This document shows, piece after piece, positions 29,623 through 57,579 of a DNA stretch of 61,940 nt. The notes under the pieces are model-generated. The model was not told the origin of the DNA and did not search any database. It worked only from the letters and a program-made list of their open reading frames with translations. Origin of the DNA: Deltaproteobacteria bacterium (GTDB taxonomy: Bacteria > Myxococcota > SpSt-1050); assembly GCA_026416535.1 (NCBI GenBank), contig JAOAFA010000059.1, positions 1 to 61,940 of the forward strand, in the 5' to 3' direction. Every line of letters begins with the position of its first letter. The stretch's first letter is position 1. Made by a program: the position numbers and the translations under genes.

Positions 29623-30234
29623 TCACTCATTAATGTACTTCGATATCTCTTTCCTTAAGAACAATCTTGCACGATGCAAGCGGGATTTAACAGCTGGGAC
29701 TGAAAGATTAAGCTCTTTACCGATCTCTTCATTCGACATACCTTCTATGTCCTTCATAATAAATACAACTCTATATTCGTCTGGCAACTTGTCTATTGCC
29801 TCATCTATTTTCTGTCTCAGTTCCTTTCTGAGAAGGAGTTTATCAATTCTATCAGACCAATCATTTTCTTGGTGTGAATGCTCGGCAAGTTTATCTATAT
29901 CCATATTCGGATTCTCATCTATGGACTCAGATTGATTATCATACCTTCTCCCCCGTAATTTCATAAGGGCGAAGTTTGTACATATTCTATAAATCCAACT
30001 TGAAAACAATGAGTCACCCCTAAATGAGTCAATATTTTTATACACACTTACAAATGTGTCTTGAACTACATCCTGTGCATCCTCCTTACTTTTAGTTATC
30101 TTTAAGGCAAGCCTCATAGCCTTGGGAGAATATCTTTCCACAATCTCTTCAAATGCAGAGTAGTCTTTCTCCCTAATCAATTTTACAAGTTCATCATCAT
30201 TTAATAGTTTGTAGTTTACAGCTTTGATAACCAT
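29623..30234 (-). CDS. ECF (RpoE-like) sigma factor
   Basis: 203 residues. Region 2 reads 'DAQDVVQDTFVSVYKNIDSF' then FSSWIYRICTNFALMKLR; region 4 reads 'LPDEYRVVFIMKDIEGMSNE' then EIGKELNLSVPAVKSRLHRAR. An acidic linker of about 35 residues lies between. The start codon lies 18 bases inside the end of the upstream FHA-TPR gene (19-base overlap), coupling it to the Tad/FHA operon. Its partner anti-sigma follows. Confidence 0.93.
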   Translation of the reverse strand: MVIKAVNYKLLNDDELVKLIREKDYSAFEEIVERYSPKAMRLALKITKSKEDAQDVVQDTFVSVYKNIDSFRGDSLFSSWIYRICTNFALMKLRGRRYDNQSESIDENPNMDIDKLAEHSHQENDWSDRIDKLLLRKELRQKIDEAIDKLPDEYRVVFIMKDIEGMSNEEIGKELNLSVPAVKSRLHRARLFLRKEISKYINE

Positions 30235-32243: not shown

Positions 32244-32255
32244 GTTACAAGCCCC

Positions 32256-34456: not shown

Positions 34457-34464
34457 GTTCTCAC

Positions 34465-35307
34465 CTACACATCAATATCTACAATCCTTTTTATGACATA
34501 TGCGCCTATCAGTTCCATAAAGATAATGGCACCAATGAGGGCGTAGCCAAACCAGTGTTTTAACATGGGCTCCATAAGGTCAGGCCTCAACCAATCCATG
34601 ACGAACCAAATAACTATTGGCATCACACCAATTATAAACCCTTGTAACTTCCCTTGAGCTGTGAGTGCTCTAATCCTACCTTCTATCTTGAACCTCTGCC
34701 TTATAGTGTTTGCAATATTCTCAAACATCTCTGATAAGTTCCCCCCCATTGTCCTTGCTATATTAGTTGATGTAATAAACAGGTCAAGATCCTCACATTT
34801 CACTCTCTCTCCCATATTTTTTAATGCATCCTCAATAGAGACCCCAAGTTTCATCTCCTTTAATGCTAGTCCAAATTCTTGCGATATAGGTGGTTGGAAA
34901 TCTTGGGCGATGGTCCCCATTGCCTGTTGGAGACTAAGTCCAGCCTTAAGTGCGTTAGACATATTTTGAAGTGCATCGACTAACTGTTCGTTAAACTTTC
35001 TTACCCGTCTTCTTGAATAATATTTGACCAAAATTGAAGGTGTAAAAAATCCAAGAACTGTCAATATCGCTGTCACTACATATCCGAATGCTAAAATCCC
35101 TATGATAAACCCTACCACCATTACAGAGAGATTCAAAAGCATCATCTGTTTTGGGTCAATAAACAGAAACATATCAGAGAGATCTTCTATCTTAGGGTTT
35201 AGATACTTTTCTTGATATTGGAGCATCCCACTTCTCATAATATCATAAACCACAAGTGTAAGAAAAAATACCGAACCAAAAACGAGTAAGAATATTATTC
35301 CACTCAT
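34465..35307 (-). CDS. tadB: Type II secretion F domain protein TadB
   Basis: 280 residues; N-terminal helix, a hydrophobic pair (about 53-95), the T2SSF domain ('LVDALQNMSNALKAGLSLQQ', 'FGLALKEMKLGVSIEDALKN') and C-terminal helices. With TadC it forms the platform on which the pilus ATPase acts. It overlaps cpaB by 4 bases. It is somewhat shorter than many TadB proteins, lacking the N-terminal extension. Confidence 0.9.
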   Translation of the reverse strand: MSGIIFLLVFGSVFFLTLVVYDIMRSGMLQYQEKYLNPKIEDLSDMFLFIDPKQMMLLNLSVMVVGFIIGILAFGYVVTAILTVLGFFTPSILVKYYSRRRVRKFNEQLVDALQNMSNALKAGLSLQQAMGTIAQDFQPPISQEFGLALKEMKLGVSIEDALKNMGERVKCEDLDLFITSTNIARTMGGNLSEMFENIANTIRQRFKIEGRIRALTAQGKLQGFIIGVMPIVIWFVMDWLRPDLMEPMLKHWFGYALIGAIIFMELIGAYVIKRIVDIDV

Positions 35308-36095
35308 CTTCCAGACTTAACAACTTCAATAAATGTCCCAGATCTAATCTTGGACAACTCCTTTGTTAGATCCCCTTGAATAACCATTTCGAGGGTGATC
35401 CTTTTTCTTTCTGCTTGCTGTGATAGATCATCTGGATTCCTCAAAGTAAGGTACAGCGTGCCCATCTCTTGTGCAAGTAATATAATCTCTGCCTCCTCTG
35501 GAAGGACGAGGAAGGTCACATTCCCATAATTCTTTTCATTTTCAGGTATTAAATTGATATTTGAGGCAGGCGTAATACGGCCCGTCGCGAGCACCAATAT
35601 ATTTTGCAAGAGGGTAGTAACAATTGTGTTATTACTCGATGGGTCCCTAAATGCACCAAGTATATCGACGTGATCATTTGGTCTTATCATATTACCAACA
35701 GCTGATTCCTGATTAACCCTCACAGTAATTGCCCTGCCCCTCTTTTGAACAATGTTTGATAGCTTTTCAAAGCCATGTGTCTCTTGAAAATGAAACCACA
35801 TTAGTGGATCTCCCTCTTTAAGGTTTACCACTACTGTCTGACCTAAAATTCTATCCAAATCTTTTTCCCTAATTGTACTCTTAGTCACAAACAGCTCTGG
35901 CACAGATCTCTTTGCAAGCATATCAATCTCAATAGCAGTTCCCTCTGTAATATCTTGTGCTGCTACAATAATCTCTCTCAGATTCCAACCCCTTTTTATT
36001 TCTCTCTCCTTCGCCTTAAGGGCAAACATTGACATGAGCCCGGCAAATAATCCCAGTATAATTCCGATAACCAGAGGGATCTTTCCTTTCAGCAT
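35304..36095 (-). CDS. cpaB: Flp pilus assembly protein CpaB/RcpC (SAF domain)
   Basis: 263 residues: N-terminal transmembrane anchor (IPLVIGIILGLFAGLMSMFA), SAF domain (VVAAQDITEGTAIEIDMLAK is matched by 'IIVAAQDITEGTAIEIDMLA'), then the RcpC part 'GRAITVRVNQESAVGNMIRP' and NDHVDILGAF, and 'VTFLVLPEEAEIILLAQEMG'. It is the periplasmic component thought to work with the secretin RcpA/CpaC. Start supported by SD AGGAGG. First gene of the Tad operon, but no pilin, secretin, TadZ or TadA ATPase gene lies here. Confidence 0.92.
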   Translation of the reverse strand: MLKGKIPLVIGIILGLFAGLMSMFALKAKEREIKRGWNLREIIVAAQDITEGTAIEIDMLAKRSVPELFVTKSTIREKDLDRILGQTVVVNLKEGDPLMWFHFQETHGFEKLSNIVQKRGRAITVRVNQESAVGNMIRPNDHVDILGAFRDPSSNNTIVTTLLQNILVLATGRITPASNINLIPENEKNYGNVTFLVLPEEAEIILLAQEMGTLYLTLRNPDDLSQQAERKRITLEMVIQGDLTKELSKIRSGTFIEVVKSGR

Positions 36096-42826: not shown

Positions 42827-43570
42827 CTAAAATGTATATTTTATGGATGGCTGTAGTGCCAGATATAGTGTTCCAATCCCTAGAAGATAATAGGCCCTTG
42901 CCTCTACGGAAATAGAAAAATGTCTCAATGTCGTATAATATTCAACTCCAAGACCTCCATCAAATGCAGGTGAAGAGCTATCCATTTTGAGTTCTGTTCC
43001 ATCACTTTTATAATTTTTATCCGGTGATAAGAATGCAAATCCGCCGCCCCCCCTTACAAATGCAAATAACCTATCTGTAGAAAGATATGCGAATTTTGCT
43101 GATAATCCTAACAGGATTACAGAGACATCACTTGACAAGTACTTTGGATATGACTCAGCGCACTTATCAACGTCAATCTTATCACCAAACTCCTTCTTAC
43201 ATTTATTTGCATCAAAATAAACTATATTTCCATTTTTGTTATACCCATAGCCATAAGAATAACCGGTATCATTACTAGCTGATATAAAGAACGAATAGAA
43301 ACCAGCTTCCATGGAGAGAATATCCATGATATCATACCCAATAGTTATTGAGTTAGAAAAACCGGATGAGAGTCCTGACACATCCGACATGAGTGTCAAT
43401 CCATACGCAATATCAGTGTTAACAAATAATCCTTTATGGACCTCTTTGAGTCTCTTTGTACTTTGACTTGATATTGATGCTCCCTCTGATTGCGAGCCCT
43501 CTCCCTCTGCATATAGCCAAAAAGGAATACATGTAATCATTAGATTAACTACGACTATTTTCCTTAACAT
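42827..43570 (-). CDS. Outer-membrane beta-barrel protein of the Glt-like cluster
   Basis: ATG 43570 is preferred over the longer frame (43660) because GGAG lies before it and it opens a signal peptide (MLRKIVVVNLMITCIPFWLY, cut after AEG); 247 residues. The mature part alternates polar and hydrophobic residues in strands with aromatic girdle positions: FVNTDIAYGLTLMSDVSGL, 'NSITIGYDIMDILSMEAGFY', a Tyr/Gly loop (SYGYGYNKNG), 'FAFVRGGGGFAFLSP', ending in LALQPSIKYTF, a barrel-type C-terminal Phe. Probably a GltA/GltB/GltH-like porin-fold protein (inference from position). Two loop Cys (near NKCKKEF and DKCAES) may form a disulfide. It follows the GltG-like gene by 14 bases. Confidence 0.75.
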   Translation of the reverse strand: MLRKIVVVNLMITCIPFWLYAEGEGSQSEGASISSQSTKRLKEVHKGLFVNTDIAYGLTLMSDVSGLSSGFSNSITIGYDIMDILSMEAGFYSFFISASNDTGYSYGYGYNKNGNIVYFDANKCKKEFGDKIDVDKCAESYPKYLSSDVSVILLGLSAKFAYLSTDRLFAFVRGGGGFAFLSPDKNYKSDGTELKMDSSSPAFDGGLGVEYYTTLRHFSISVEARAYYLLGIGTLYLALQPSIKYTF

Positions 43571-43584
43571 ATAAACTCCATTTT

Positions 43585-45426
43585 TCAATCTGTTCTTTTC
43601 AAAATGAATGGATAAGTTACTATGACAATACCTCCACCTTTGGGTTCTGGAAATTTCCAACCTTTTACCTTACTAATTATACAATTTTCGACATTCTGGT
43701 TATTTAGCGTAGTCTCTTTAACCTTTGCAGATTGAACCGATCCGGTAGGAGAGATAACAAAATTCACTGACACCTTACCCCAGAGACCCGGATTCTTTGC
43801 AAGCTCAAGTTCGTAGCAGTATCTTATTTCATTTGCATGCGCCCTTATGACCCTTCTTATAAGCTCTTTGTCAAGAGAACCAAGGACCATTGGTGTCCCA
43901 CCGGAAATTCCTATGTCATGCTCTTTCTTCCCACCTATTGATCCAACACCGTATCCGTATCCACCTTGTCCTGCCCCCCTACCCCTAGTACCAACGGTTC
44001 CTATACCTATTGAATCCAAACTCGAACCACCGCCACCGGGACCAACTCCTCTCAACCCCAATCCCCCAGATCCCCTTGCATCACCAATCTGTGAACCAAA
44101 AAGTCCACCTATTGCGTTTTGTAGATCTCCCCCAAGACCTTTACCGCCAAAAAGTGTGGATCCACCTGCAAACATACCTCCGCTTTTACCAAACATCTTT
44201 AGGACACCCACCTTCTGAACAATCTCCCTATCATCTGGCTTAATTGCCTTTACTGCGGCTCTCTTGAAAACCTCTGGAGCGTCTTTCTTCCCCATCTTCC
44301 CCTCTTTATTAGCTGCTTTTGCACCTGACTCACCTTGCTTAGGCATTTCCTTTAACTTTTTTAACTCCTTATCCTCATCTATTTTCTTTGCAGGTGTCAT
44401 TATAAAATTTACAAACTTATTCGGATTCTTTACCGCCTGCTCAGTCTCAGCCTTCATATCATAAGGAAATAGGTACATACTAACCAACGAAGTCACCATA
44501 AAAAACAAGGCCACTATCAATGCATTTAAATAGTTATAATCAATATTCGTCCCCAATCCAAGTGGAAGCTTTTTAGGTGGAGGGGTGAATCTAAACTGTA
44601 AAACAGCATTATTGATGTACATTCTTGTAATAGAATTCGGGGGTAGAGTATAGACATAAGAATCTGGGATTGATGGATCTGGAACGGCCCGCTTTTCATC
44701 TATTAGATCCTTAAAAGATTTTGAACTCTCACCTATATAGACTTCACCCTCAACATTCTTGGGGAATGTAAGCCTATACTCTTTATTTATTGTTCGTATA
44801 ACAGGGTATTCAGGGATCGTAATCTCATCTGGAATTATGTAAAAATCGCACCTGCTTGTTGAACCTATAGTAACCTTCTGAGGATACATAAAATATTTAA
44901 CATCCACCATCTCCTGGTACCACAGGAACTTTATCTCAATGGCCTTGTTACCGTAAGGATCCTGTTCTTCCCCTTCTATATCATCTTCTCTTTTTTTAGC
45001 TACAATTTGTGGTTCTTCCTTTTTCTTTGGTTTGGATTCTAGCTCTTTTTTACCAGATGACGTAGGAGACTGTCTATGAGATTCAGGACCTACCTCATCT
45101 ACTGACATAATGGGAGGACTAACTCTATTTTGTTCAAAATACACAACCAGCTTTGTTTTTCCGAGTAAGATCTCATCCCCATTTTTTAAGGCTATCTTAT
45201 CTACCTTTTTGCCATTAACTATAGTGCCCGCAGAAGAGCCCATATCCCTAATATAATACCCGTCAGATGTAGCCTCAATCTGGGCGTGAATTCTAGAAAC
45301 AGTGGGATCCTCAAGTTTCAGATTTACAGATGGAAGCCTACCAATCTTAATTGAGTTCTCTGTAAATGTCTCCTCACTAATTAGTTCATCAGCATAGTAA
45401 ATCTTAAAAGAAATTCTTCTGGACAT
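43585..45426 (-). CDS. GltG-like protein: FHA domain, transmembrane helix, AgmX/PglI TonB-like C-terminus
   Basis: 613 residues. N-terminal cytoplasmic FHA (about 1-95) with IKIGRLPSVNLKLEDPTVSR, SRIHAQI and DMGSSAGTIVNG. A second beta-rich domain (about 160-280) precedes one transmembrane helix (NALIVALFFMVTSLVSMYLF). A Lys/Ala-rich region, a Gly-rich region (GGMFAGGSTLFGGKGLGGDL) and a C-terminal AgmX/PglI-type domain follow (LIRRVIRAHANEIRYCYELE; VNFVISPTGSVQSAKVKET; WKFPEPKGGGIVIVTYPF). In Myxococcus GltG/PglI has this same order and carries energy from the AglRQS motor across the periplasm. The FHA could be regulated by the kinase at 6.9-8.1 kb (inference). Confidence 0.85.
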   Translation of the reverse strand: MSRRISFKIYYADELISEETFTENSIKIGRLPSVNLKLEDPTVSRIHAQIEATSDGYYIRDMGSSAGTIVNGKKVDKIALKNGDEILLGKTKLVVYFEQNRVSPPIMSVDEVGPESHRQSPTSSGKKELESKPKKKEEPQIVAKKREDDIEGEEQDPYGNKAIEIKFLWYQEMVDVKYFMYPQKVTIGSTSRCDFYIIPDEITIPEYPVIRTINKEYRLTFPKNVEGEVYIGESSKSFKDLIDEKRAVPDPSIPDSYVYTLPPNSITRMYINNAVLQFRFTPPPKKLPLGLGTNIDYNYLNALIVALFFMVTSLVSMYLFPYDMKAETEQAVKNPNKFVNFIMTPAKKIDEDKELKKLKEMPKQGESGAKAANKEGKMGKKDAPEVFKRAAVKAIKPDDREIVQKVGVLKMFGKSGGMFAGGSTLFGGKGLGGDLQNAIGGLFGSQIGDARGSGGLGLRGVGPGGGGSSLDSIGIGTVGTRGRGAGQGGYGYGVGSIGGKKEHDIGISGGTPMVLGSLDKELIRRVIRAHANEIRYCYELELAKNPGLWGKVSVNFVISPTGSVQSAKVKETTLNNQNVENCIISKVKGWKFPEPKGGGIVIVTYPFILKRTD

Positions 45427-45444
45427 AATCTAATTCCTCTCAGA

Positions 45445-45723
45445 CTAAAGGTCGGACACTGAACCCAAAATCTTATTCCTAAAATCCTCTCTATACTTTA
45501 TGAGATTCTGGTGTTTGGCCTTAGCTGTACTATGAATATATTCTCCGTCTGGTTTTGTCAAATCACCTGTTATCAAATCGTCCTCAAAATCATACACGGT
45601 CTTCTTTTTATAAAGTGTTTGTCCATCTGATACTGTAGCGTTTTCGTCATCCTCGGCAAATGCTAAACTAATACTGACCAATAATATAACTAGGATAATA
45701 AAAGGGGAAATTATACTTCTCAT
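45445..45723 (-). CDS. Small exported protein at the GltF position
   Basis: 92 residues with a signal peptide (FIILVILLVSISLAFAEDD). The mature part is acidic and conserved-looking: TVYDFEDDLITGDLTKPDGE and HQNLIKYREDFRNKILGSV. It lies between the GltE-like and GltG-like genes (18 bases before the latter), where Myxococcus has gltF, a periplasmic protein. The equivalence rests on position and export only. Confidence 0.7.
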   Translation of the reverse strand: MRSIISPFIILVILLVSISLAFAEDDENATVSDGQTLYKKKTVYDFEDDLITGDLTKPDGEYIHSTAKAKHQNLIKYREDFRNKILGSVSDL

Positions 45724-45783
45724 ACCATTCCCTCCTTACGCTAATCATTATAACACCTTATAAAATATAATTCAATTATTATT

Positions 45784-47733
45784 CTACTCATCCTCTTCTC
45801 CAGATTGTTGCTTAAGAGATTGACTCTCTGGCTGAACATTCGTCGTCCCCTGAGCATCTTTGTTGGCATCTGCCTTACTCTCAATTGTTGAAGAATTAGC
45901 CTTTTTTACATCTTGGGGAGGAGCTGGCTCAGCCATTTGAGGTGGAGTTGGTTGTGGTGTGGGTTGCTCTGATTTCTTAGCTTCTTCTTCTTTCTTCTTA
46001 GCCTCCTCTGCCTCCTGTTTTGCCTTCTCCTCGGCCTTTCTCCTTTCTTCTTCCTCGGCTTTCTTTTTTGCCTCCTCCTCAGCCTTCTTTTTCTCCTCAA
46101 GTACTTTCGCAGCATACTGGGCCATTAGTTCTGAGTATATCTTCTCTGCAGATTTTGGGGCCTGGTCCATTGATAGCTGTTCTAAGACCTCCTTATTCAA
46201 CATTTGCATGAGATTTTTCTTGAAAAATTGATAGGCCATCTCTGGCAACATCTTTTTTGCCTCTTCTGGAATCGCTTTCTTATCAGATATCTTGAAGGAG
46301 GCTTGTATAATGTCGGCCTCAACAGCCTCAGGTGCAATCGCATATATCTCTTCTTTAAGAGATTTATCAACTTGATCCAAAATTCCCTTCTTCACACTTT
46401 CAAAAGAGCCTTGTAGGACCTTGTCTCGTATTTCTTTCTCTATCTTTTTATCCTCCATTGGTTTTACAAGCCTTGCAACAGCCTTTTCACATGCCTTTCT
46501 AATGGGTGGATCTAGTAATTCTGCAATAACTTTATTATATGCCTCCTCAATGGCTCTATCTTTATCCTTTTCTATTGCTTGATTTACGAGCATCATCCTT
46601 TCTTCCTTATCTTTTGCCTCTTTTGCCAGAGTGGCCTTTTCTTTTACTTCTTTAATATACTGATAAACTGGATCTTTCATACTAAGAGCGGTCCCCATTG
46701 TGTTTTTATACAACTCGAACCATTTTATAGCCTCATCATAATTTTCATAGCCTTTGTACATTAGTATACCCATATTAAACATTGCAGCAGTATCTTTGGG
46801 ATTTAACTTCAACATAGTCTCGTAGGTCCTCTTAGCGTCTTCAAATTGCTTTTTTCCTCTATAGGCAACTGCCAGTCCCAGGAGGGCATCTCTATTTCTT
46901 GGTTCATAACTGAGTACCTCTGTAAACTGCTTGATAGCCCCATCATAATTACTATATTTTAAGGCTATAGCCCCAATATTCATTTTTGCATCTATCATAT
47001 CCTTCTTCAAGTTTACTACTTTGACAAACTGATTAAGCGCACCTGATTCATCGTCCATTTTTAGTAGAATCATACCAAGGATATTATTCAATCCTGGGTC
47101 ATTCGCATCTATTTTCAACCCCTGAATACATGTAAGCCTTGCTAATTGTAGTTTGTTTGCATCATAGTATATCATAGAGAGAACTCTGTATGCCTCAAGG
47201 TTAGTTGGATCAAACCTTAAAGCTTTTCTACAGTATTTTATCGCCTCGTCGGGTTTCTTCTGATCTTTATATATAGATGCCAAAACTACATTATATCTTG
47301 CAGATTTCTCATCCTTTTTAAGCAAGGTCTTTGCAACTTCGATAGCCTGATTCAACTTATTGCTCTTTCTATATACGTTAATAAGATTTTCAGCTGCAAT
47401 ATCCATTTTTACAGATGCAAGCTTATAATACTTTTCTGCGTTTTCTAGATCTCCCTTTTTTTCGTAAAGGAAACCTAGGTTATAATAAATTTCGGGATTA
47501 GTACTCCCTGATGCCTCGAAGCTCTTAAATTTTGAAATTAGTTCATCATAATTTATAACACCACTTTGTTCCTGCTCCTTATATAATATAGTTAGAGCCT
47601 CAAAATCTGATGGACTAATCTCTTTAGTAACCACTTTTTCAGGTTGAATAACCTTATCCCGTGTTTTCCCTGGGCACCCCAAAAATACAAGCAAAACCGA
47701 ACACATTAAGAATATTATAAAATTTCTATTCAT
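45784..47733 (-). CDS. GltE/AglT-like TPR lipoprotein with charged coiled-coil tail
   Basis: 649 residues. Strong lipobox LLVFLGC (Cys20). Residues about 60-340 are consecutive TPR units (YYNLGFLYEKKGDLENAEKY, YCRKALRFDPTNLEAYRVLS, QFTEVLSYEPRNRDALLGLA, TYETMLKLNPKDTAAMFNMG). The C-terminal 90 residues are an almost pure Glu/Lys/Ala coiled coil (KKKAEEEAKKKAEEEERRKA) followed by a Pro/Gln tail. AglT/GltE of Myxococcus is likewise a TPR lipoprotein; the charged tail makes this one longer. It overlaps the GltD-like gene by 8 bases. Confidence 0.83.
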   Translation of the reverse strand: MNRNFIIFLMCSVLLVFLGCPGKTRDKVIQPEKVVTKEISPSDFEALTILYKEQEQSGVINYDELISKFKSFEASGSTNPEIYYNLGFLYEKKGDLENAEKYYKLASVKMDIAAENLINVYRKSNKLNQAIEVAKTLLKKDEKSARYNVVLASIYKDQKKPDEAIKYCRKALRFDPTNLEAYRVLSMIYYDANKLQLARLTCIQGLKIDANDPGLNNILGMILLKMDDESGALNQFVKVVNLKKDMIDAKMNIGAIALKYSNYDGAIKQFTEVLSYEPRNRDALLGLAVAYRGKKQFEDAKRTYETMLKLNPKDTAAMFNMGILMYKGYENYDEAIKWFELYKNTMGTALSMKDPVYQYIKEVKEKATLAKEAKDKEERMMLVNQAIEKDKDRAIEEAYNKVIAELLDPPIRKACEKAVARLVKPMEDKKIEKEIRDKVLQGSFESVKKGILDQVDKSLKEEIYAIAPEAVEADIIQASFKISDKKAIPEEAKKMLPEMAYQFFKKNLMQMLNKEVLEQLSMDQAPKSAEKIYSELMAQYAAKVLEEKKKAEEEAKKKAEEEERRKAEEKAKQEAEEAKKKEEEAKKSEQPTPQPTPPQMAEPAPPQDVKKANSSTIESKADANKDAQGTTNVQPESQSLKQQSGEEDE

Positions 47734-50700
47734 TGCCTACCTCCTCTTCCTTTGAATCCCCTTTGTCTTTACTGGATCCCTTATTATCTAGCTCGCTCTT
47801 CTCTTTATCTACTTCGTCTTTCTTTTCTTCAATTTTCTCTTTATCACCTTCTGCAGATTTCTTCTCCTCCCTCTGTTCTACCTGCCTTGGCTTTTCTACC
47901 TCCTTCTTCTGACTCCTCATCTCTTTTACCTTCTTGTCCCAATCAAACGCCATCGCAAAAGGATTTGATTCAAGAAACTGTCTAAAATTGTCAGCTTGTG
48001 GTTTTATCTCATCCCCAGATGGATACTCTTGAGGTCTTAATTCATAAAGTCTCTTTAATGATTCTACAGACCACTTGTTAAAAACCCCAAGCTCTGATGA
48101 CTTTGAAAGTGCTGCCTGATAATGAGCAACGGCCTTTTCCTCAAGCGGCATTGTCTGTTCTCTTATCATTTGTTTATATAAATCTTTCTGCTGCTTCGTC
48201 TTTAATTCTTTAGGGATAGGCATTTCTAAAAAGCTTTTTATAAATTCTTCGTATGCCTGACCTATCTTGTACAGGCTTGCAATAGCCCATTCTGCTACTT
48301 TAATATTAACTATATCGGCATAGGCCTTATAAACCCTTTCCATTGCTTTGGTCTTTTCACTAAACCTCTTCTTAAAAGTCGCTTCTGGCATTTCTAATTT
48401 TATCGCATCAAATTGGGCATACACGGGGGCAACCATAATGAACTTGGCATGAGCTACTGCCTCAAGTGCCTCTGGAGAAAACTTATCCTTCTCCTTACTT
48501 TTTTCATAGATCTTGATTGCCTGATCGAACTTCTTTTCAGCCTCTTTTTGATTCCCAAGTTCTTGCAATAAAAGCCCCTGTTTCACAATAATTGGCAAGA
48601 GCTTATTTACATCTGTCTTAGAATATTTCTTCTCAAACTCTTGATAAACCTCAAGTTCCTTCTTTTTGTCTTTCATGATATTATATATTTTTGCTATCGA
48701 CAGGTGAACATCGGGAATATCAGCCTCTTTTGGATAATCTTTTAAATACTTTCTTCTCGCATCAATAGCCTCCTGATACATCTCAAGCCCCAAGAGATAT
48801 GTCCCTGCATTGAATAGAGCGGTTGGGGCATCTTTCTCTTTCGGGAACATCTCTACAAATTTAAGATAATATTTAGCTGCGTTTTCATAATCTGCCTCAT
48901 CTCTAAAAGACTCAGCTATAGAGTAGAGTGTCTTAGGAGCCAAGCTCGATTTGGGATATTTCTCTATAAGTAGGATTCTCATCTTTATTGAATCTTCAAA
49001 TTTTTGAGCCTTACTGTAATTTGCAGCTGCATTATATAGTGCCGTGTCTGCCATCTTTGTGTCAGGGAACTCCTGTTGAAAATCATAGTATTTTTTTGCT
49101 GCTGTTTCATATTCACCCTTCTTTTCGTAATCCTCTATCAATTTAAATGCAGACTCAGCAACAAGTCTTTTCAGATCTTCTAATACCTTCCCTTTTGCGA
49201 TCTTTGGATTTTTAAGAAATTCCCTTGTCCACCTGTTAAGCTCTGCCCAGTTTTGTGCAAGGTTGAACGAGTCGAGAATCAGATTTACGGCATATTCAGC
49301 AACCTTACTATCTGGGTACTTCAAAGCAACTTCGGCAAACATCCTGTTTGCCTCCTTAAAATAGTTGTATGAGTAAAATAGATACCCGATCTCATAAGTT
49401 ATATCAGGCAACCTCTCCTTATGCTCATTCCATTTGTCATCCGCAAGTTTGGGAGGCTTCTTATCTTGAGACAAAATTCCAACGTATTTCTGCATAGCGT
49501 CTATTCTCTTCTTCTGTAATGGTGGTATCTCAACAGGAGTTTTAATCTTTGCTGATGGAAGTTTTATCCCTTTAGCAGCGTTTTTATATGCAACTATTGC
49601 GGAATGGATTGCATCTAGGTTTAAATCTCCCTTTGGATCCATCTTTACCACCTTAAGATATGCATCTCCGGCGCTCTCCCACTTTTTTAATTTGTAAAGG
49701 AGCTCTGCATAATAAAAGTTGAGTGTATAGGCATCCTTGGCATTTGGGAAGAGTTCAAGATAATCTCCATATAATTCGTGAGCCATGAAAAATGTCTTTT
49801 CTGAACCAGTCTTTTTTGCCTCGTTATGGTATGTAGTAGCAAGTTTTCTAAGTAGTGCCTCTGTCAATTCTTCAGCCTCCCTATAGTTTTTTTGCATCTC
49901 CTCGAGTTTCTTTTTTTCATTAGGATCTGTAGTTTGGTCAATTAGTTTTTTATCCGGGACCTTTGATCTAATATTTTTGAACATATCAACAAGAACTCTT
50001 GCCTCTTCAACAACCTGCCTTTTATTTGCGCGTCTATCATGTGATTCTACAATCCTTGCTTGATAAGTAAGATTTCTCATATCATCAGGTTTCTCAGAGA
50101 TGAGAAGCTTGTGAATCTCTATAGATTCGTTATCCTTTCCCTGATCAAATAGCAGTTGAGCAAGTGTTCTCAACATATCCAGATATTTCTCCGGACCGGC
50201 TATTCTCAAAAAACGTTCTTTTGCATCACTCACGTTTCCGGAATTAGAATATGTAAGAACAAAATCCTTCATCGCCTCCTTTTGAAGTGTCAACTTATTC
50301 TCTTTATTCTCTTCTACATTGGTGAGAGAATACGTAATAACCTTTTCGAAGATATCCAAAGCCCTATCCCACTCGCCAAGATTATAATATACCCATGCCA
50401 TCTTATATAGAGCATATCCATATACCCTTGAATTTTCATCCTTTGCGGCCCTCTTATATGCCTCTATGGCTCTCTGAAGGTCACCTCTATTAAAATAGTA
50501 CTCCCCAAAGCTCAGATAGGCATCCGGCACGTACTTAGATTCAGGATACTCCTTAATAAGTGTCCTATATATTTTTAATGCCTCCTCCTGCTCACCCATA
50601 TCCATGAGATTAAAACCATAATAAAAGTATACCTCGTCTATTCGTGGATAATTTGGATACTTATCAATTAGAGCTTTGTACATCTCAAGTGCCTTTTGTC

Positions 50701-51106
50701 TAAAGTTCTCTTGCTGTTTTTTAAGTGTCTCCTTCTCTTTTTGTATCATCTTCAATTTTTCTGGCTGTTTTTCATACATTGTTTCTTCATTTGTCTTCTC
50801 CATAAACTTCATCCATCTAAATTTTGCTTTCTCACTATATATCTCTGCCATTCTGAAGAGAATCTTTGGCTTCTCCTCGTCAGATACCCCTAACTTAAGC
50901 ATGCGATTCATTGTCTCAAGCTCTTTATCGCGTATCTCCTCCATTTCACTGCCCACCTTGAAATATTGATCTTCAAATCTAAGATCCGGTCTCACCTGTT
51001 CCTGAGGCTTTTGGGCCCCTTTCCCCTTTTTTTGTGCAATCAATTCCCCATTAAAAAAGGTTACCATACAGAGTCCTGCAATAATATACACAAAAAGCCT
51101 TTTCAT
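47726..51106 (-). CDS. GltD/AgmU-like large periplasmic TPR protein
   Basis: ATG 51106 is chosen because GGGAGGA precedes it and it opens the signal peptide MKRLFVYIIAGLCMVTFFNG; the frame is open to 51154. 1126 residues, close to AgmU/GltD. It is almost all helical TPR repeats: YFYYGFNLMDMGEQEEALKI, YLSFGEYYFNRGDLQRAIEA, 'YALYKMAWVYYNLGEWDRAL', 'LYSIAESFRDEADYENAAKY', 'FNAGTYLLGLEMYQEAIDA'. The last 70 residues are Glu/Lys-rich. In Myxococcus AgmU/GltD is a periplasmic scaffold linking the inner-membrane motor to outer-membrane parts. No enzyme motif. Confidence 0.82.
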   Translation of the reverse strand: MKRLFVYIIAGLCMVTFFNGELIAQKKGKGAQKPQEQVRPDLRFEDQYFKVGSEMEEIRDKELETMNRMLKLGVSDEEKPKILFRMAEIYSEKAKFRWMKFMEKTNEETMYEKQPEKLKMIQKEKETLKKQQENFRQKALEMYKALIDKYPNYPRIDEVYFYYGFNLMDMGEQEEALKIYRTLIKEYPESKYVPDAYLSFGEYYFNRGDLQRAIEAYKRAAKDENSRVYGYALYKMAWVYYNLGEWDRALDIFEKVITYSLTNVEENKENKLTLQKEAMKDFVLTYSNSGNVSDAKERFLRIAGPEKYLDMLRTLAQLLFDQGKDNESIEIHKLLISEKPDDMRNLTYQARIVESHDRRANKRQVVEEARVLVDMFKNIRSKVPDKKLIDQTTDPNEKKKLEEMQKNYREAEELTEALLRKLATTYHNEAKKTGSEKTFFMAHELYGDYLELFPNAKDAYTLNFYYAELLYKLKKWESAGDAYLKVVKMDPKGDLNLDAIHSAIVAYKNAAKGIKLPSAKIKTPVEIPPLQKKRIDAMQKYVGILSQDKKPPKLADDKWNEHKERLPDITYEIGYLFYSYNYFKEANRMFAEVALKYPDSKVAEYAVNLILDSFNLAQNWAELNRWTREFLKNPKIAKGKVLEDLKRLVAESAFKLIEDYEKKGEYETAAKKYYDFQQEFPDTKMADTALYNAAANYSKAQKFEDSIKMRILLIEKYPKSSLAPKTLYSIAESFRDEADYENAAKYYLKFVEMFPKEKDAPTALFNAGTYLLGLEMYQEAIDARRKYLKDYPKEADIPDVHLSIAKIYNIMKDKKKELEVYQEFEKKYSKTDVNKLLPIIVKQGLLLQELGNQKEAEKKFDQAIKIYEKSKEKDKFSPEALEAVAHAKFIMVAPVYAQFDAIKLEMPEATFKKRFSEKTKAMERVYKAYADIVNIKVAEWAIASLYKIGQAYEEFIKSFLEMPIPKELKTKQQKDLYKQMIREQTMPLEEKAVAHYQAALSKSSELGVFNKWSVESLKRLYELRPQEYPSGDEIKPQADNFRQFLESNPFAMAFDWDKKVKEMRSQKKEVEKPRQVEQREEKKSAEGDKEKIEEKKDEVDKEKSELDNKGSSKDKGDSKEEEVGNE

Positions 51107-51214
51107 AAGGTTATCCTCCCTAATTTTTAAGATTCTTCTCAACCTAATCATCATCTACGTTTCCTTACTTTATCCCTGGGGACAACATCTACTAAGATGA
51201 TCAACTCCTCCTAT

Positions 51215-53035
51215 CTATTTAATGCATCCCTTCAACATGGTATAGTGATATGTCCCAAGCTCATCCCTCCAATATTCACCCTCATATGGCCAATACAATT
51301 CATGATCTTCTGTGGCACCTGAATATCTCTTTTTTAGTATCTGGACAGTAAAATCCTGACCTTTTAGTTTAGACTCCAGGAGATTTTTCTTTGCTGTCTC
51401 AACCTCAAGCTGGATTCTTAAAGCCTGTTGAATAAGTTCTCTCAACTCATCTCTATGTAAAACAATAGAGTCTTTCATTACGGAGCCTGCCAAAGACATT
51501 AATCGTCTCTTCTCATTTTGTAAATCTGAAATTGCCTTTTTTGCAACCTGTGAATTTCTCCAATAACCACTCTGTTTTGAAATAGACTGTATCTCTTTGT
51601 CAATTTGGGCAAGCGCATCGTTATACTTTTTTGCAATCTTATTACTCAGGACACTGGCAATTATCCTCTTTTTTATATCCTTCTTTGCAGAATCTTTATC
51701 AAGTCCCATCTCCATTTTGTGGAAGAGCTCATAATATTTATCATCGCTCATCTTTTGTACAACAATTTTGTTTAGCTCTTCATACAAATTTTGGTAGGTC
51801 TCCATAAACTCATCTACAAATGCAGCCGCCTCAGGATACCTACAATTATCGTAATATATGACAGCCTTAATAATTGTGGCTTCTGGGAAGAATTCATCCT
51901 TAAAAAATGGGGATGAAAGGGTAACAAGATTGCCGAGAGCTTTTTCATAATCTCCCATTCTGAAATACGCCCATGAAGATTCAAACAGCGATTCAAGCCA
52001 GTTCTCAGAATCACGACTCACCTTTTCGAAGTAGTATACAGAGGATTTAAATTGCCCTGCCTGATAATGAATCCTCGCGAGCTGAAGAAACGCGTTCTCC
52101 CTTAGTTGTTCATCATATATGAGTCCTTTCTTTGGGTGTGTAAGCTTTACAACGTCTCGAAAGACATTAACGGCGTCTTGCAGCCTATTTTCCCTATACA
52201 AAATTATTCCTTCTAAATATCTAGCTTTTGGATATAGGGGTGAATTCTCTGCGATTCTATTTATCATAACCCTTGCAGCCTGAAAATCGTCCTTTTCGTA
52301 GTAATACTTAGCAAGTAAGAAGTGTGACTGATCTCTGTACTTAGCTGGAAAATCGACATCAGGATATTTTGCGAGTGCCTGCAAAAGCAATGAGTCGTCT
52401 GCAAGCTTTTGATTTATAAAAATACCCCATTCAATCGAAGACTGAAAAAATCTATGAGCGGTACCTTTATTAATGATCTGGATAAAATAGAGTAGTGATG
52501 CGTAATATTTTTTCATCCTGTAAAGTGCCTTTGCAATGTTGTACTCTGCAGCCTGATGGAATTCCATATTCTTTGGATCTGCTAATATCTCATAAAAAAG
52601 TATTGTAGCGTTTTGAAATTCACCCTGTTTCATAAGAGATAAGGCTTTATCCATTTTTGCTTTATCGGCTGCCTGTGTTGGTCCAAGGTCAAGTGCATCA
52701 AATGTGATGGCCCCTCTAAATGCGGGTTGAACAGCCGGTTTCTTTTCCTCCACCGGCGGGGCTACAACTGCCTTAGATTTCTCTGGCTTGGATGGCATCA
52801 GTTCCTCTGGGACGGAGGATGGTACCCCTTCTTTCTGAGTGGATTGTTCTATCTCGGGCTCTTTTGCTTTCTTTGGTTTTTTCTCTTTGGGTGTCTTTTT
52901 GGGTGGCTCTTTCTTTTTGGGAGCAGCAACCTCATCCATATCTAAATCCAGGCCCTCGAATTTGATTTGGGCATGTATCGAAAGACCAAATAAAAAAACG
53001 ACAAAAAATATGAAAGCTCTATTCAAGGCTATCAT
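51215..53035 (-). CDS. GltC-like periplasmic TPR protein
   Basis: ATG 53035 follows AAGGAG and opens the signal peptide MIALNRAFIFFVVFLFGLSI (cut after HAQ); 606 residues. The mature N-terminus repeats a short strand motif, KFEGLDLDMDE (about 25-35) and TFDALDLGPTQ (about 113-123), separated by a Lys/Pro-rich stretch (KKKEPPKKTPKEKKPKKAK). TPR units then follow (ATILFYEILADPKNMEFHQA, 'YFEKVSRDSENWLESLFESS', YFRMGDYEKALGNLVTL), and a coiled-coil end. Similar in size and makeup to GltC of the second Myxococcus glt cluster. The two LDL motifs may be docking sites (inference). Confidence 0.78.
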   Translation of the reverse strand: MIALNRAFIFFVVFLFGLSIHAQIKFEGLDLDMDEVAAPKKKEPPKKTPKEKKPKKAKEPEIEQSTQKEGVPSSVPEELMPSKPEKSKAVVAPPVEEKKPAVQPAFRGAITFDALDLGPTQAADKAKMDKALSLMKQGEFQNATILFYEILADPKNMEFHQAAEYNIAKALYRMKKYYASLLYFIQIINKGTAHRFFQSSIEWGIFINQKLADDSLLLQALAKYPDVDFPAKYRDQSHFLLAKYYYEKDDFQAARVMINRIAENSPLYPKARYLEGIILYRENRLQDAVNVFRDVVKLTHPKKGLIYDEQLRENAFLQLARIHYQAGQFKSSVYYFEKVSRDSENWLESLFESSWAYFRMGDYEKALGNLVTLSSPFFKDEFFPEATIIKAVIYYDNCRYPEAAAFVDEFMETYQNLYEELNKIVVQKMSDDKYYELFHKMEMGLDKDSAKKDIKKRIIASVLSNKIAKKYNDALAQIDKEIQSISKQSGYWRNSQVAKKAISDLQNEKRRLMSLAGSVMKDSIVLHRDELRELIQQALRIQLEVETAKKNLLESKLKGQDFTVQILKKRYSGATEDHELYWPYEGEYWRDELGTYHYTMLKGCIK

Positions 53036-53055
53036 TTTCTTACTCCTTAATTGCA

Positions 53056-53826
53056 CTAAAACTCCTCTTCAAACTGCATTGGGATATATATCCCTAATCC
53101 AATAAGACCCAACATATGGTTTTGAATGTCCGTGATCCCGTCTTTATAGTATCTTGGTTTTAACTCCATTTTATAAATAATATTTTTGAGTTCAAATTTA
53201 AGTACAAGCCATCTGTTTAGAAACACACGGTTACCAATACCCAAAGAGCTCATAAGGTTTACCCCACCCATATCTTTCTCAACTCCATTTTCCCAACCTC
53301 TATACTCCACTCCGACTATACCAAGATTTAGCAACAAGAACATATCAAAATGGACAATTAACTCAGAGAGGAAGCTTACTTTACCGTATATTGGAGACCA
53401 TGCGGCACCCCCACCTGCAAAATACCTCATCTTCCCCATATCAGGGACAGCCAATTCATTTTTCTCAAGAAAGGTCTTAGGTGTAACAAAAGTGGTGTTA
53501 TCTGCAGTAATATCTACTGCATAACCCAAATTGGCGTTTATACCAAAAGACTCTGCTATAAAATATTCCAGATGTAACTGCCCACCCAAATTCTGCGTAA
53601 AAGGGTCATTTAAACCAGAAACAAAAGATGGTGAAATTTCAAACCGTCCCTTTTTCAAAAACATTCTGCCTTGAACGGCCTTTATTCTATCCTCAAGCTT
53701 AACCTTTTCAGCCTTTTTAACAAGTCTCTTTGACCCTTTACCTTCCTCACCTGTAATCTCTTCTCCAAGGACGGTGGCACCAAACATACTACTTAGCAAA
53801 AAAGACACTACCAAAATATTTTTCAT
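53056..53826 (-). CDS. Outer-membrane beta-barrel of the 'myx-plus' type (GltA/GltB-like)
   Basis: 256 residues, signal peptide LVVSFLLSSMFGATVLGEEI. The hallmark of the family is RMFLKKGRFEISPSFVSGLN with DPFTQNLGGQLHLEYFIAES, that is 'gRfEl.p....lnDPft....l...y.i.E', as in the outer-membrane beta-barrel domain (TIGR04565) found in myxobacterial Glt loci. Further strands: MRYFAGGGAAWSPIYGKVSF and 'LLLNLGIVGVEYRGWENG'. It sits just before the GltC-like gene (20-base gap), as GltA/GltB accompany GltC in Myxococcus. Confidence 0.82.
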   Translation of the reverse strand: MKNILVVSFLLSSMFGATVLGEEITGEEGKGSKRLVKKAEKVKLEDRIKAVQGRMFLKKGRFEISPSFVSGLNDPFTQNLGGQLHLEYFIAESFGINANLGYAVDITADNTTFVTPKTFLEKNELAVPDMGKMRYFAGGGAAWSPIYGKVSFLSELIVHFDMFLLLNLGIVGVEYRGWENGVEKDMGGVNLMSSLGIGNRVFLNRWLVLKFELKNIIYKMELKPRYYKDGITDIQNHMLGLIGLGIYIPMQFEEEF

Positions 53827-53850
53827 AAATACTCCTTCTTAAGGTGTTAT

Positions 53851-55860
53851 CTATTTTCCTGCATCATTGGCTATTCCTGATACGCTACAAGTCTGATTAC
53901 CAGACCCATCATCCCTACCGATTAGGGCATTTATTTGCAACTTATCTCCTGGTCCCAAACCACACCCGTAAAATTTAACCTTATCTTTGTTAGTATTGTC
54001 ACACTCCGAGGGTATATACTGCCAATAAATGGGTCTCTTACAAGGTACCGGATTACCACTCTGGTCTTTTGCCCCTTCACACCTACAGGCAAAGTAGGGA
54101 TTGCATACTTTTTTGAGTGTATCTTCAATGTTTTGGTACACACACGGACTATTATCTTTATCAACACACTTTACATTATTATCACAATATTGGAACTTTG
54201 CCAAAGAGGCTCCCGATAGACATCCCTCTAATGTCATTTCATCTTTACCTCCTCCTCCAATATCCACTCCACCCGCGTCACTTCCACATGTCTTAGTTGG
54301 GATCTCACATCTTTCGACATCTTCATTATTAATTTTTACCATTAAACAAGAGGGGTCTGACGGTTTACCACCCAAAATTACTTCATTAGATGCGATTAAA
54401 ATATCAACAATTTTTATCATCGTCTCGCCAAAATCCTCCTTACATATCGAGTCAAGGAAATATTTATCTAATCCCTTAGCAACTTCAAGATACCTCTTTC
54501 CACCACATGCAACTCCATTAACAGATGCACACTCTTCTACGGAATTTGGCGCTGGTTCACCTTCTTTTACAACCTTTGTGCCTGTGATTACAGCCATGTT
54601 TACACCAGCATTACCCTTTAGCTCTTTCAAAAAATTAATAAACTCCTGCGTTGGTATTAGACTATCAAATCTACTCAGAGGATTAGCTATAGGTTCGTTA
54701 AAGTCACAGAAGCAATAATTTTTACTTTGATCAAATCCATCAACCTTACCACACTGTGGTTTAGCCCATCTAAAACTCGAACAATCCGATGGTGAAGAGC
54801 ACTCTTTCATACAATATTGTTGACCCTTTTTTGTATAATCAGAGTCATTTATGGCTTCAACAGGTATTGCCCCATAAGGACAAGCAGGTGTGCTTGAGAA
54901 ATCAGGTTGCATGGGCTGACAATCTGGGTGACAGGTGTTCGGATTTGGATAACACCTATCATTTGTATCTTCATTAAATGATGGATCAAAAGGGAGATAG
55001 CTACAATCCTCTTCATCAGTGAGCACGATTATAGTGAGTCTTGCATCAGGTCTTAAGAAACCCGCATTCTCATTGTCCACCAAGTTCTTCCCGGTTAATG
55101 GGTCCTTCCAATCTCTGTCGAGCGCCATCCTAATTGCAGACAATCCCTTTTCAAATCCTGTTCCATTTATTCCTATCTTAACATTGTCCTTAAAGATATT
55201 AATGAAATTTGTATCCCCTATCATAGACTTTATTTTACTTGTTAAGACCTTTGGATGTTCACCATTATAAAACGGACAGGTCATCTGAGAGGGTTTACAT
55301 GCCCTTAGTCTCCCGTTGTTTTCTGGTATACAATATTTTTGACCTTCTTCAAAGCCCTGGATCTCTACACATATCGAGGGTATAAATGAGTTTCTTGAGG
55401 TATCATATGGAGGGCAATCAGCATCCGTATTGCACTTTTTGGTGCAATATTTGGTACCTGGTATCAAAACCTTGGTCGGTTTCTTTGCCTCTATGCATTC
55501 CATACCATTCGTACACACATTACTTGGACATTCATCTAGGGGCAGATAATCTACATCAGTTGTGATGATACCAATATGAAAATCGTTCTGTGCACTAACA
55601 ATTCTATTTATAAACTTTTCGAGGTTTCTTGCAAGATTATCCTGTTCTTGTGCCATAGAGCCAGAATTATCTATTAAAAATAATATGTCCGATTTAGTAA
55701 TGGTCTCTATATTTTTCACATCATTAAATTCTACAGTAGGTTTTTCCGGTAGATTAAAGAAGTAGTAGTCTTGACAAGAAAGAAAGAGAGAAAAGACAAC
55801 TACGGCTAAAATACTGATAACTAAGATGATTATCTTTCTTGATTTTTGAGAAATACTCAT
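53851..55860 (-). CDS. VWA-domain Cys-rich lipoprotein, CglB-like candidate surface adhesin
   Basis: ATG 55860 follows AAGGAG and gives 669 residues with lipobox FSLFLSC (Cys29). VWA domain: MIDAS DNSGS (64-68) in 'DILFLIDNSGSMAQEQDN', strand FHIGIITTDVDYL and the later 'RLTIIVLTDEEDCSYLPFD'. Cys-rich inserts interrupt and follow the fold: YCTKKCNTDADCPPY, QYCMKECSSPSDCSSFRW and NNVKCVDKDNSPCVY, probably disulfide-stabilised. CglB, the gliding adhesin of Myxococcus, is also a Cys-rich VWA lipoprotein with a MIDAS and works with Glt outer-membrane proteins. Here such a gene heads the Glt-like operon (24 bases before the barrel gene). This one is larger than CglB; homology is inferred from architecture and context. 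Confidence 0.85.
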   Translation of the reverse strand: MSISQKSRKIIILVISILAVVVFSLFLSCQDYYFFNLPEKPTVEFNDVKNIETITKSDILFLIDNSGSMAQEQDNLARNLEKFINRIVSAQNDFHIGIITTDVDYLPLDECPSNVCTNGMECIEAKKPTKVLIPGTKYCTKKCNTDADCPPYDTSRNSFIPSICVEIQGFEEGQKYCIPENNGRLRACKPSQMTCPFYNGEHPKVLTSKIKSMIGDTNFINIFKDNVKIGINGTGFEKGLSAIRMALDRDWKDPLTGKNLVDNENAGFLRPDARLTIIVLTDEEDCSYLPFDPSFNEDTNDRCYPNPNTCHPDCQPMQPDFSSTPACPYGAIPVEAINDSDYTKKGQQYCMKECSSPSDCSSFRWAKPQCGKVDGFDQSKNYCFCDFNEPIANPLSRFDSLIPTQEFINFLKELKGNAGVNMAVITGTKVVKEGEPAPNSVEECASVNGVACGGKRYLEVAKGLDKYFLDSICKEDFGETMIKIVDILIASNEVILGGKPSDPSCLMVKINNEDVERCEIPTKTCGSDAGGVDIGGGGKDEMTLEGCLSGASLAKFQYCDNNVKCVDKDNSPCVYQNIEDTLKKVCNPYFACRCEGAKDQSGNPVPCKRPIYWQYIPSECDNTNKDKVKFYGCGLGPGDKLQINALIGRDDGSGNQTCSVSGIANDAGK

Positions 55861-55871
55861 AATATTTCTCC

Positions 55872-55899
55872 TTGCAATTTTGAACATACATTATATAAT
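55872..55899 (+). promoter_or_regulatory. Promoter of the PATAN/DnaJ-like gene
   Basis: TTGCAA (55872-55877, 4 of 6), 16-base spacer, TATAAT (55894-55899, perfect). The -10 lies in a palindrome (ATTATATAAT, 55890-55899), so a TATAAT also faces the Glt-like cluster on the minus strand; the nearest minus-strand TTGACA is 27 bases away, too far to be its partner. Confidence 0.5.
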
Positions 55900-55956
55900 T
55901 ATTACTACAAGTATTTCCCTAATGTCAAGGTTTTTAACCTTAGCGTAAGGCTTTTT

Positions 55957-57579
55957 ATGAACTATAAAATAACAAAAAGAGGTGAATTTGGTTCTATATT
56001 ATACGACTGTTATAAAAAGGGATTTTCTGGGGCAATATCTGTATCAACATCCAATAATACCCATACAATGTACCTTAGAAATGGTAAACCAATATCTATA
56101 AAAGAGCAGAAGACTACTATGCCTTTAGGAAGAGTCTTTGTGGAGCTCGGGATGATTGATAACAAGGCTTATGACGAATCCCTTATGGAGATGGCAAAAA
56201 CTGGAGAGAGGCAGGGAGAGATATTACTTAGGAAAGGCATTATTACTCAGGAGCAAATGAACCAGGCAATAAATGTTCAGTTTTATAAAAAGGCACTAAA
56301 ATTCTTTGAGATAAATGAGGGAGAGGTTAAAATATCTTATAGTTCCGAAGAAATACCCACTGGCTCAGAAAATATTAAAAACATCTCAACTCTAAAAATC
56401 ATTTACCATGGTATAAAGTCCTTAAACAAGGAACACATAGCGAGGCTCTTACCTATTACAAATAATACGGTCATCACAAGAAAGGAAGAACTGGACCTGA
56501 CACTCTTTTCTCTCCCAATAAACGCAGAGGAGACAACAGTAATAGAAAACATTAAGGTCAAAACACCAATAACGACTCTAACAAAACTAAAGATCCTATC
56601 GGATACTGAATTAGCTCAACTAATATATTTCCTATTTTTAATAGAGCTTATTGACATATCTACACTTGATATATCAGACACAGCAAATACTGATGAAAAC
56701 TATATTAGACTTTCAGGTATCTATAAGCCCTTTGAAAAATCTGCAGAAGAATTGATAAAACAAGAGCAATCAGATGAAAAAACGGCAGTTGCACCTATAA
56801 GTGCTTTGGAAGATATTAAGTGGATTAATGAACTATATAAAAGGCACCAGACCATAGATTACTTTGAATTTTTCCAATTAGACAAAAATGCAACTGATGA
56901 ACAAATCAAAGTTGCATACCAAAACATGCTGAGGCGGCTAAATGCAGTAAAAAATGATACAACAATAGATGATGAGCTCTCTATTAAAATAGACCAGCTT
57001 ACATATTTTGCGGAAGAAGTATACAATACTCTTATTTCGGAAAAAAGCAGAAAGGAATATAATTCAGTTATAACAACTTATTATGGAAGGGTGGCTGTTG
57101 ATGAGGGGCAGGCAGAAATTGAATTTACACGTGGTGAGATATTTCTATGGAAAAGAAATTTCGTAGATGCATTTGAGGCTTTTAAAAAGGCCATAGAATT
57201 AGGTGGACAAAAACCTGAATATATTGCCTCGTATGGTATTGCTCTCTACCTAAATCCCGAAGAATCTCAGAGATCGAGAGAGACATTGGGGAAACTGTAT
57301 ATAAAAAGGGCTATTTCACAAAATCCAAGGTGTATATTAGCTTATATATATCAGTTATTGGTAACATGTATAGAGGGAAATTCTAAAGATATAGAGATCC
57401 ATATGATTCAGATCAAAAATATGTTTCCAAATAATGAAAGGATATCTAAGATTATAGCATCATTAGAAAGATTTATCTCAAAAAGACCTGCGACAGGAGA
57501 AATACAATTGGCATTAAAAGATGAAAGGAAAGAGAATAGAACAGAACAATTGCTAAATATATTTTTTGAGAAAAGATAA
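55957..57579 (+). CDS. PATAN/DUF4388-like protein with a DnaJ-like segment and TPRs
   Basis: ATG 55957 (540 residues) is preferred over the open frame back to 55846, which overlaps the divergent promoter region and the neighbouring gene. N-terminal DUF4388/PATAN-type module 'LYDCYKKGFSGAISVSTSNN' and 'MYLRNGKPISIKEQ', then a MshEN-like helical stretch (GRVFVELGMIDNKAYDESLM, GEILLRKGIITQEQMNQAIN). A J-domain-like region (about residues 308-375) has DYFEFFQLDKNATDEQIKVA with no clear HPD, so it would not stimulate DnaK in the usual way. Helical TPR-like units end it. Such proteins occur in myxobacterial signalling and polarity systems; here the function is unknown. Confidence 0.8.
   Translation: MNYKITKRGEFGSILYDCYKKGFSGAISVSTSNNTHTMYLRNGKPISIKEQKTTMPLGRVFVELGMIDNKAYDESLMEMAKTGERQGEILLRKGIITQEQMNQAINVQFYKKALKFFEINEGEVKISYSSEEIPTGSENIKNISTLKIIYHGIKSLNKEHIARLLPITNNTVITRKEELDLTLFSLPINAEETTVIENIKVKTPITTLTKLKILSDTELAQLIYFLFLIELIDISTLDISDTANTDENYIRLSGIYKPFEKSAEELIKQEQSDEKTAVAPISALEDIKWINELYKRHQTIDYFEFFQLDKNATDEQIKVAYQNMLRRLNAVKNDTTIDDELSIKIDQLTYFAEEVYNTLISEKSRKEYNSVITTYYGRVAVDEGQAEIEFTRGEIFLWKRNFVDAFEAFKKAIELGGQKPEYIASYGIALYLNPEESQRSRETLGKLYIKRAISQNPRCILAYIYQLLVTCIEGNSKDIEIHMIQIKNMFPNNERISKIIASLERFISKRPATGEIQLALKDERKENRTEQLLNIFFEKR

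Follow-up and report, generated by a model that had tools for sequence, protein, structure and literature searches.

A fused glt-type operon from a deep-branching, probably anaerobic lineage of the Myxococcus phylum, and its candidate partners elsewhere in the genome

Introduction

In Myxococcus xanthus, AglRQS is a proton-driven motor in which AglR contacts GltG; MglA acts on MreB, AglZ, AglR, and GltJ, and the periplasmic and outer-membrane Glt proteins relay force to the adhesin CglB at substrate-fixed adhesions (PMC3169522, PMC4488436, PMC3858216, PMC12288465). GltK is essential in this organism (PMC4488436). Glt has a paralogue there, Nfs, which is made of the same parts and has the motor in common with it, has no I, J, or K paralogues, and has been proposed to result, with glt, from a recent duplication within a terminal deltaproteobacterial branch (PMC3858216). 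The other AglR homologue, MXAN_3003, binds neither GltG nor NfsG (PMC3858216). Related core sets occur in non-gliders, CglB has been reported missing from Anaeromyxobacter, and a fusion of the G1 and G2 clusters, which carry Glt in M. xanthus, has already been noted for that genus (PMC3169522).

Here, we analyse a 61,940-nucleotide stretch of DNA (the window) from a metagenomically assembled genome (MAG), in which a preliminary description, made from the sequence alone, had pointed to a Glt-like machine.

Results

Operon layout and component genes

As first described, eight co-oriented genes form one tight run on the - strand (42827-55860). Neighbouring genes overlap by up to 8 bases or are separated by as many as ~110, and most are preceded by a GGAG/GAGG-type ribosome site. 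Likely starts lie at 55860 for the VWA gene (with a ribosome site), 51106 for GltD (its longest open reading frame extends to 51154), and 43570 (ATG) for GltH. The genes, with hmmscan scores, are:

53851..55860, - strand: VWA Cys-rich lipoprotein with a CglB-like N-terminus, candidate surface adhesin (lipobox, CQDYYF, MIDAS DNSGSM)
53056..53826, - strand: GltA/GltB-type outer-membrane barrel, single copy (TIGR04565, 90.2 bits, cut-off 60)
51215..53056, - strand: GltC, periplasmic TPR protein (NF033756, 576 bits, cut-off 450)
47726..51106, - strand: GltD (AgmU), giant TPR protein (tblastn to Myxococcus GltD, and trees)
45784..47733, - strand: GltE (AglT), TPR lipoprotein (NF033758, 178 bits, cut-off 225; lipobox FLGC)
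45445..45723, - strand: GltF (CglF), small exported protein (CglF model NF033764, 102 bits, cut-off 90)
43585..45426, - strand: GltG (PglI), with FHA, one TM near residue 297, and an AgmX/PglI (TonB-like) tail (NF033760, 534 bits, cut-off 650; tail NF033768, 122 bits, cut-off 40; FHA, 70 bits)
42827..43570, - strand: GltH (CglE), outer-membrane barrel (CglE model NF033755, 104 bits, cut-off 70)

The Glt-type character of the parts was thereby upheld: four proteins score above curated cut-offs, while GltG and GltE fall below theirs, yet NF033760 is by far the best model for GltG and NF033758 the best for GltE (next model, 87 bits); GltD, which has no model, was placed with Glt by its tree. CglE and CglF are NCBI names, which we equated with GltH and GltF from their position in the G1 cluster of Myxococcus and from their tblastn matches. 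Chance can be excluded as the source of these matches, since TIGR04565, GltC, and CglE gave none in any of 14 control genomes. Promoter and terminator scans of the DNA returned sites no more frequently than in shuffled sequence.

Adjoining the operon, a divergent gene (55846-57579, + strand) carries DUF4388 (38.6 bits), a weak J domain and TPR, and an MshE-type c-di-GMP motif that at 36.7 is just short of its cut-off of 38. A similar gene adjoins the operon in the sister genome described below, and its product is a possible regulator.

Host genome and lineage

The host MAG (2.96 Mb in 134 contigs, 97.95% complete, 1.38% contaminated; window on contig C70) was placed in the Myxococcus phylum, in a different order from Myxococcus. 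The window is indeed low in GC (0.366), but the idea of a Glt machine in a foreign-seeming lineage had to be given up. Horizontal transfer of the operon, which we had entertained, was dropped for the same reason, and the operon represents vertical inheritance, ordinary for the phylum. Of 195 phylum genomes, 184 have a GltC match (148 above the cut-off) and 172 a CglE match, the latter count including Nfs paralogues; when named genomes were scanned with a GltC alignment, those picked out were Myxococcus, Corallococcus, Archangium, and Anaeromyxobacter. In family f15 of the same phylum, genomes are mostly 9–13 Mb and GltC scores exceed 1000 bits.

Two relatives were used for comparison, a same-genus sister genome (G167) and a same-order genome (G166). 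The operon and its neighbour genes are conserved in the sister (locus L158). The sister record, DYEF01000022.1, is labelled 'Bdellovibrio sp. Tomsk_43_40', yet it is placed with Myxococcus, and the label looks wrong. A search for COX1 (haem-copper oxidase) in the host, G167, and G166 found none, which agrees with anaerobic life; complex I genes are present in the window. The apparently fermentative life of the preliminary description thus has support of an indirect kind. The lineage is deep-branching and probably anaerobic.

Glt and Nfs orthologues in the same genome

As a yardstick we used the Myxococcus genome G122, in which GltK, B, A, and C score near the M. xanthus AM003 proteins, and in which the cluster labels G1, G2, Nfs, G4, and G5 were assigned by gene content and map position. 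Nfs shares parts A–H and the overall plan with the window operon, whose proteins are closer to Glt. By tblastn, window GltC scores 386 bits to G2 (Myxococcus GltC) and 181 to Nfs; GltD, 501 bits to G1 GltD (31.6% over 1113 aa), 335 to G5, and 310 to Nfs; GltE, 152 bits to Myxococcus GltE, then 104, with Nfs at 100; GltF, 81 bits to G1 (46% identity) and 60 to Nfs; and the barrel, 110 and 97 bits to its two G2 counterparts in Myxococcus and 41 to the Nfs region. Margins are narrower for GltG (140 bits to G1 and, for the tail, 134 to Nfs) and GltH (56 bits to Glt versus 51 to Nfs), so that paralogue identity is decided by C, D, E, F, and A/B, G and H alone being insufficient. The preliminary description had named the alternative that the proteins would match generic TPR families better and that the barrels would fail TIGR04565; in fact the barrel passes, and the TPR proteins are nearer to gliding GltC, D, and E than to generic TPR or Nfs.

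A second cluster, on contig C1 (L017, 6568-16637), holds one barrel and C, D, E, F, G, and H. Its tblastn scores lean the other way: D, 624 bits to Nfs and 459 to G1; C, 239 versus 169; E, 133 versus 102; F, 83 versus 67; G, 192 versus 117; and H, 77, to Nfs only. The C1 cluster is thus the Nfs orthologue. It adjoins genes resembling enolase and ribosomal protein L3, and these neighbours are the same in G167 and G166.

In the GltD tree, Myxococcus Nfs shares a clade with the C1 copy and its G167 and G166 relatives (100/100), and a second clade with the same support unites the G5 copies. The window copy falls with the Glt of Myxococcus, Anaeromyxobacter, and other Myxococcota, at a support of 92/93, which is not of the top class. 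Approximately unbiased (AU) tests on GltD rejected both a single clade of Myxococcus Glt and Nfs (p = 6e−6) and a duplication private to the window's order (p = 1e−70). The GltC tree gave the same picture more weakly, with a support of 91 for the Nfs group. Two loci of GC 0.30 and 0.27 (L235 and L236), with the order A/B-C-D-G, occupy their own long branch in the GltD tree; the former is labelled Anaeromyxobacter dehalogenans, which is doubtful given its GC.

Could the window operon nevertheless be an Nfs-kind transporter of surface polymers, serving spore or cell coat assembly rather than gliding? Glt and Nfs are paralogous, with the same parts and a shared motor in M. xanthus (PMC3858216), which lends the idea some weight. 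Against it, Nfs has an orthologue of its own in this genome, the C1 cluster, with higher Nfs scores and a place beside Myxococcus Nfs at 100/100, whereas the window set falls with Glt; the genome also has GltI and GltJ (see below), whose presence favours Glt because Nfs is without I, J, and K paralogues. We consider a transporter of this kind quite unlikely. Nfs identity itself was rejected for the window set by the tblastn margins and the GltD tree, and the operon is almost certainly Glt by identity. The Glt/Nfs split is then older than proposed in PMC3858216, as the GltD tree rejects a recent duplication.

Motor, linker, and switch genes on other contigs

The preliminary description had noted the absence of AglRQS, GltI, and GltJ. 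This holds for the window, but each has a candidate elsewhere in the genome. On contig C29 (L089), a 3493 aa TPR protein precedes one of 723 aa that combines a zinc ribbon, a GYF domain, a TM, and an AgmX tail, the two genes being adjacent, as are GltI and GltJ in Myxococcus. The larger protein scores 935 bits to Myxococcus GltI (tblastn, 26% over 2986 aa), a score inflated by TPR repeats, so that adjacency to GltJ is the stronger argument. The smaller matches the GltJ model NF033761 end to end at 297 bits, below the cut-off of 450, and its zinc-ribbon and GYF domains match the solved AgmX structures 7zok and 7z3c; two further GltJ-like proteins (C59 and C63) have far lower scores.

Contig C87 carries a trio of one TolQ-like and two TolR-like genes. 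Its TolQ is nearest Myxococcus AglR by tblastn, and two of the three proteins are nearer M1 (AglRQS), while one TolR-like protein is nearer M2; the TolQ tree does not separate C87 from AglR. Beside this motor lies a gene for a 736 aa Cys-rich repeat protein (L019 9255-11465) with no NCBIfam match, and a similar gene stands beside the motor of G167. On contig C98, mglB and mglA are adjacent, the MglA-type GTPase standing beside a roadblock MglB, and this MglA scores 353 bits to the solved M. xanthus MglA.

A further TolQ-TolR-TolR motor, its TolQ cut by the contig end, is found on contig C24 (L018 10315-14757), followed by a GltG-like protein without FHA, a coiled-coil protein, and a protein resembling a cyclic-nucleotide-binding one; a protein of the last type takes this place at Myxococcus G5 too. 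The G167 counterpart has D- and E-like genes upstream. In the TolQ tree, the C24 motor groups with the Myxococcus motor at 3.54 Mb (100/99), which from its map position we infer to be MXAN_3003, and C87 lies in the same larger clade. The C24 genes are a third core set, matching Myxococcus G5/M2.

A MAG in 134 contigs may contain binning artefacts, and a contaminating myxobacterium could have supplied the operon or its partner modules. The contamination estimate of 1.38%, the GC of 0.35–0.38 on the contigs carrying the C1, C24, C87, and C98 modules, and the identical clusters and neighbours in the sister MAG make this highly improbable.

Barrel count, GltK, and the VWA lipoprotein

The complete machine that had been proposed was largely borne out genome-wide, with GltI, GltJ, an AglRQS-type motor, and MglA/MglB, but neither GltK/CglC nor a second A/B barrel turned up. 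Only two TIGR04565 matches exist in the genome, one per cluster. A single-sequence Myxococcus GltK/CglC query, which a diverged copy could escape, found nothing in the host, G167, G166, or the Anaeromyxobacter genome; it had matches in four of the ten genomes searched, G122 among them.

For the VWA Cys-rich lipoprotein, the lipobox, the MIDAS motif, and a weak Pfam VWA match (21 bits) agree with the preliminary description, whereas likeness to CglB appears confined to the N-terminal part. The mature protein starts CQDYYF after the lipobox, and CQxYxF is shared with Myxococcus CglB, as are the VWA lipoprotein type and MIDAS, although a full-length match is lacking: hhalign of the VWA and CglB families aligned the signal peptide through MIDAS (probability 93.9, 56 columns) and no further, and a Myxococcus CglB query returned only short VWA pieces elsewhere in the genome. 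The model of the Bdellovibrio MIDAS adhesin, likewise a VWA lipoprotein, gave 46 bits of the 700 needed (NF052240). A PDB sequence search produced no match, and structure prediction from a three-row alignment gave no usable fold (mean pLDDT 35). CQxYxF occurs in 6 of 260 lipobox-like open reading frames in the gathered loci, all six being VWA proteins (CglB, a CglB relative in G145, which is a small genome of the Myxococcaceae family, the copies in the window and the sister, one in L200, and an Anaeromyxobacter-type one). This is a lead rather than a statistic, because VWA searches had helped to choose the loci and because the copies in the window and the sister are closely related. In an Anaeromyxobacter-type genome (G031, locus L124), a VWA lipoprotein has the N-terminus CQDYNF.

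The failure to find GltK, a second A/B barrel, and canonical CglB would suit a retained envelope complex of undefined function in a non-glider, as proposed for gammaproteobacterial core sets. The set, however, is much larger than the core of seven genes, having F, H, A/B, I, J, and MglAB as well, and Bdellovibrio, without H, I, J, and K, is treated as a glider (PMC3169522); we regard a non-gliding role as improbable, to about the same degree as the Nfs-kind transporter.

Gene order and comparison with known clusters

That GltA/B-C is fused to D-E-F-G, as first described, was confirmed, and gene-order comparison found the arrangement to be common outside Myxococcaceae. In tblastn over 80 named loci, A/B-C-D-E-F-G-H on one strand recurs in Anaeromyxobacter and many MAGs (examples in the phylum are loci L194, L198, L203, L207, and L200), while Myxococcaceae loci have K-B-A-C alone. 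The fused order thus looks common in the phylum, with the split order as the Myxococcaceae state. A MIDAS gene lies directly upstream of the cluster in the sister, in L200 (in front, like the window's VWA gene), and in L222, and a piece of a VWA gene, cut there, in L159. Unlike the window operon, the Anaeromyxobacter cluster has two barrels, and no VWA gene was found adjoining it.

Compared with the M. xanthus Glt (G1 and G2)/AglRQS/MglAB system, the host shares homologues of GltA/B and C–J, a motor of TolQ and two TolR, and MglA/MglB. It differs in having one A/B barrel where M. xanthus needs two, in lacking a detectable GltK, in carrying the VWA lipoprotein gene within the operon, and in its fused G1 and G2, with gltIJ at a separate locus.

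The window also contains Tad/Kil-like genes (30216-36095, - strand), encoding CpaB (TIGR03177, 164 bits), two T2SSF proteins, an FHA protein, and an FHA and TPR protein, then an ECF sigma factor; they resemble the FHA-rich, split Kil system of Myxococcus (PMC8460266). A machine for prey attachment or hunting, working with this system and compatible with gliding, is conceivable given CpaB, the two T2SSF, and the two FHA proteins, because contact killing by Myxococcus links A-motility with a Tad (Kil) system rich in FHA (PMC8460266). Neither the adjacent genes nor a pattern scan of the remainder of C70 yielded a recognisable Tad ATPase or secretin, and we rate such a machine as unlikely, if less so than the alternatives above.

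Discussion

Our preferred reading, to which we give a probability of about 0.7, is that the operon encodes a vertically inherited Glt gliding transducer that works as in Myxococcus, in a lineage that branches deeply within the myxobacterial phylum and is probably anaerobic. The genes have Glt identity and order, are closer kin to G1/G2 than to Nfs, and share their genome with the other modules. From these observations we infer that the parts assemble into one machine driven by the C87 motor, that the VWA protein serves as its adhesin, and that the cell glides. An inner-membrane proton motor of AglRQS type (C87) would act on linkers from cytoplasm to periplasm, GltG from the operon and GltJ from C29, with MglA/MglB (C98) controlling the action of motor on linker. 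Force would pass along the periplasmic GltC, D, E, and F and the giant GltI to the outer-membrane barrels, one GltA/B and one GltH, which would present the VWA lipoprotein as a surface adhesin; stalled complexes would be the focal adhesions by which the cell glides. The case for a complete gliding machine is weakened by the failure to find GltK, a second barrel in the cluster, or full-length CglB, by the C87 TolR-like protein nearer M2 and the TolQ tree that leaves C87 and AglR unseparated, and by the related core sets of non-gliders (PMC3169522); judged from the genes, the chance that the host organism glides is about two in three.

Thus, glt and nfs both have orthologues in a small genome that belongs to the same phylum as Myxococcus but to a different order. 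A tentative extension, to which we would give somewhat less than even odds, is that the ancestor shared by Myxococcus and this deep anaerobic lineage already possessed three machines: Glt, Nfs, and the G5/M2 set with a motor of its own. Gliding and coat transport would then predate fruiting-body life, and the ancestral Glt would have been simpler, with one A/B barrel and the adhesin gene in the operon. The CQxYxF mature start offers a handle for finding CglB-type adhesins in genomes thought to be without them, Anaeromyxobacter included, and a single-barrel Glt, with no detectable GltK and the adhesin gene in its operon, would lend itself, as a minimal version, to asking which parts are needed.
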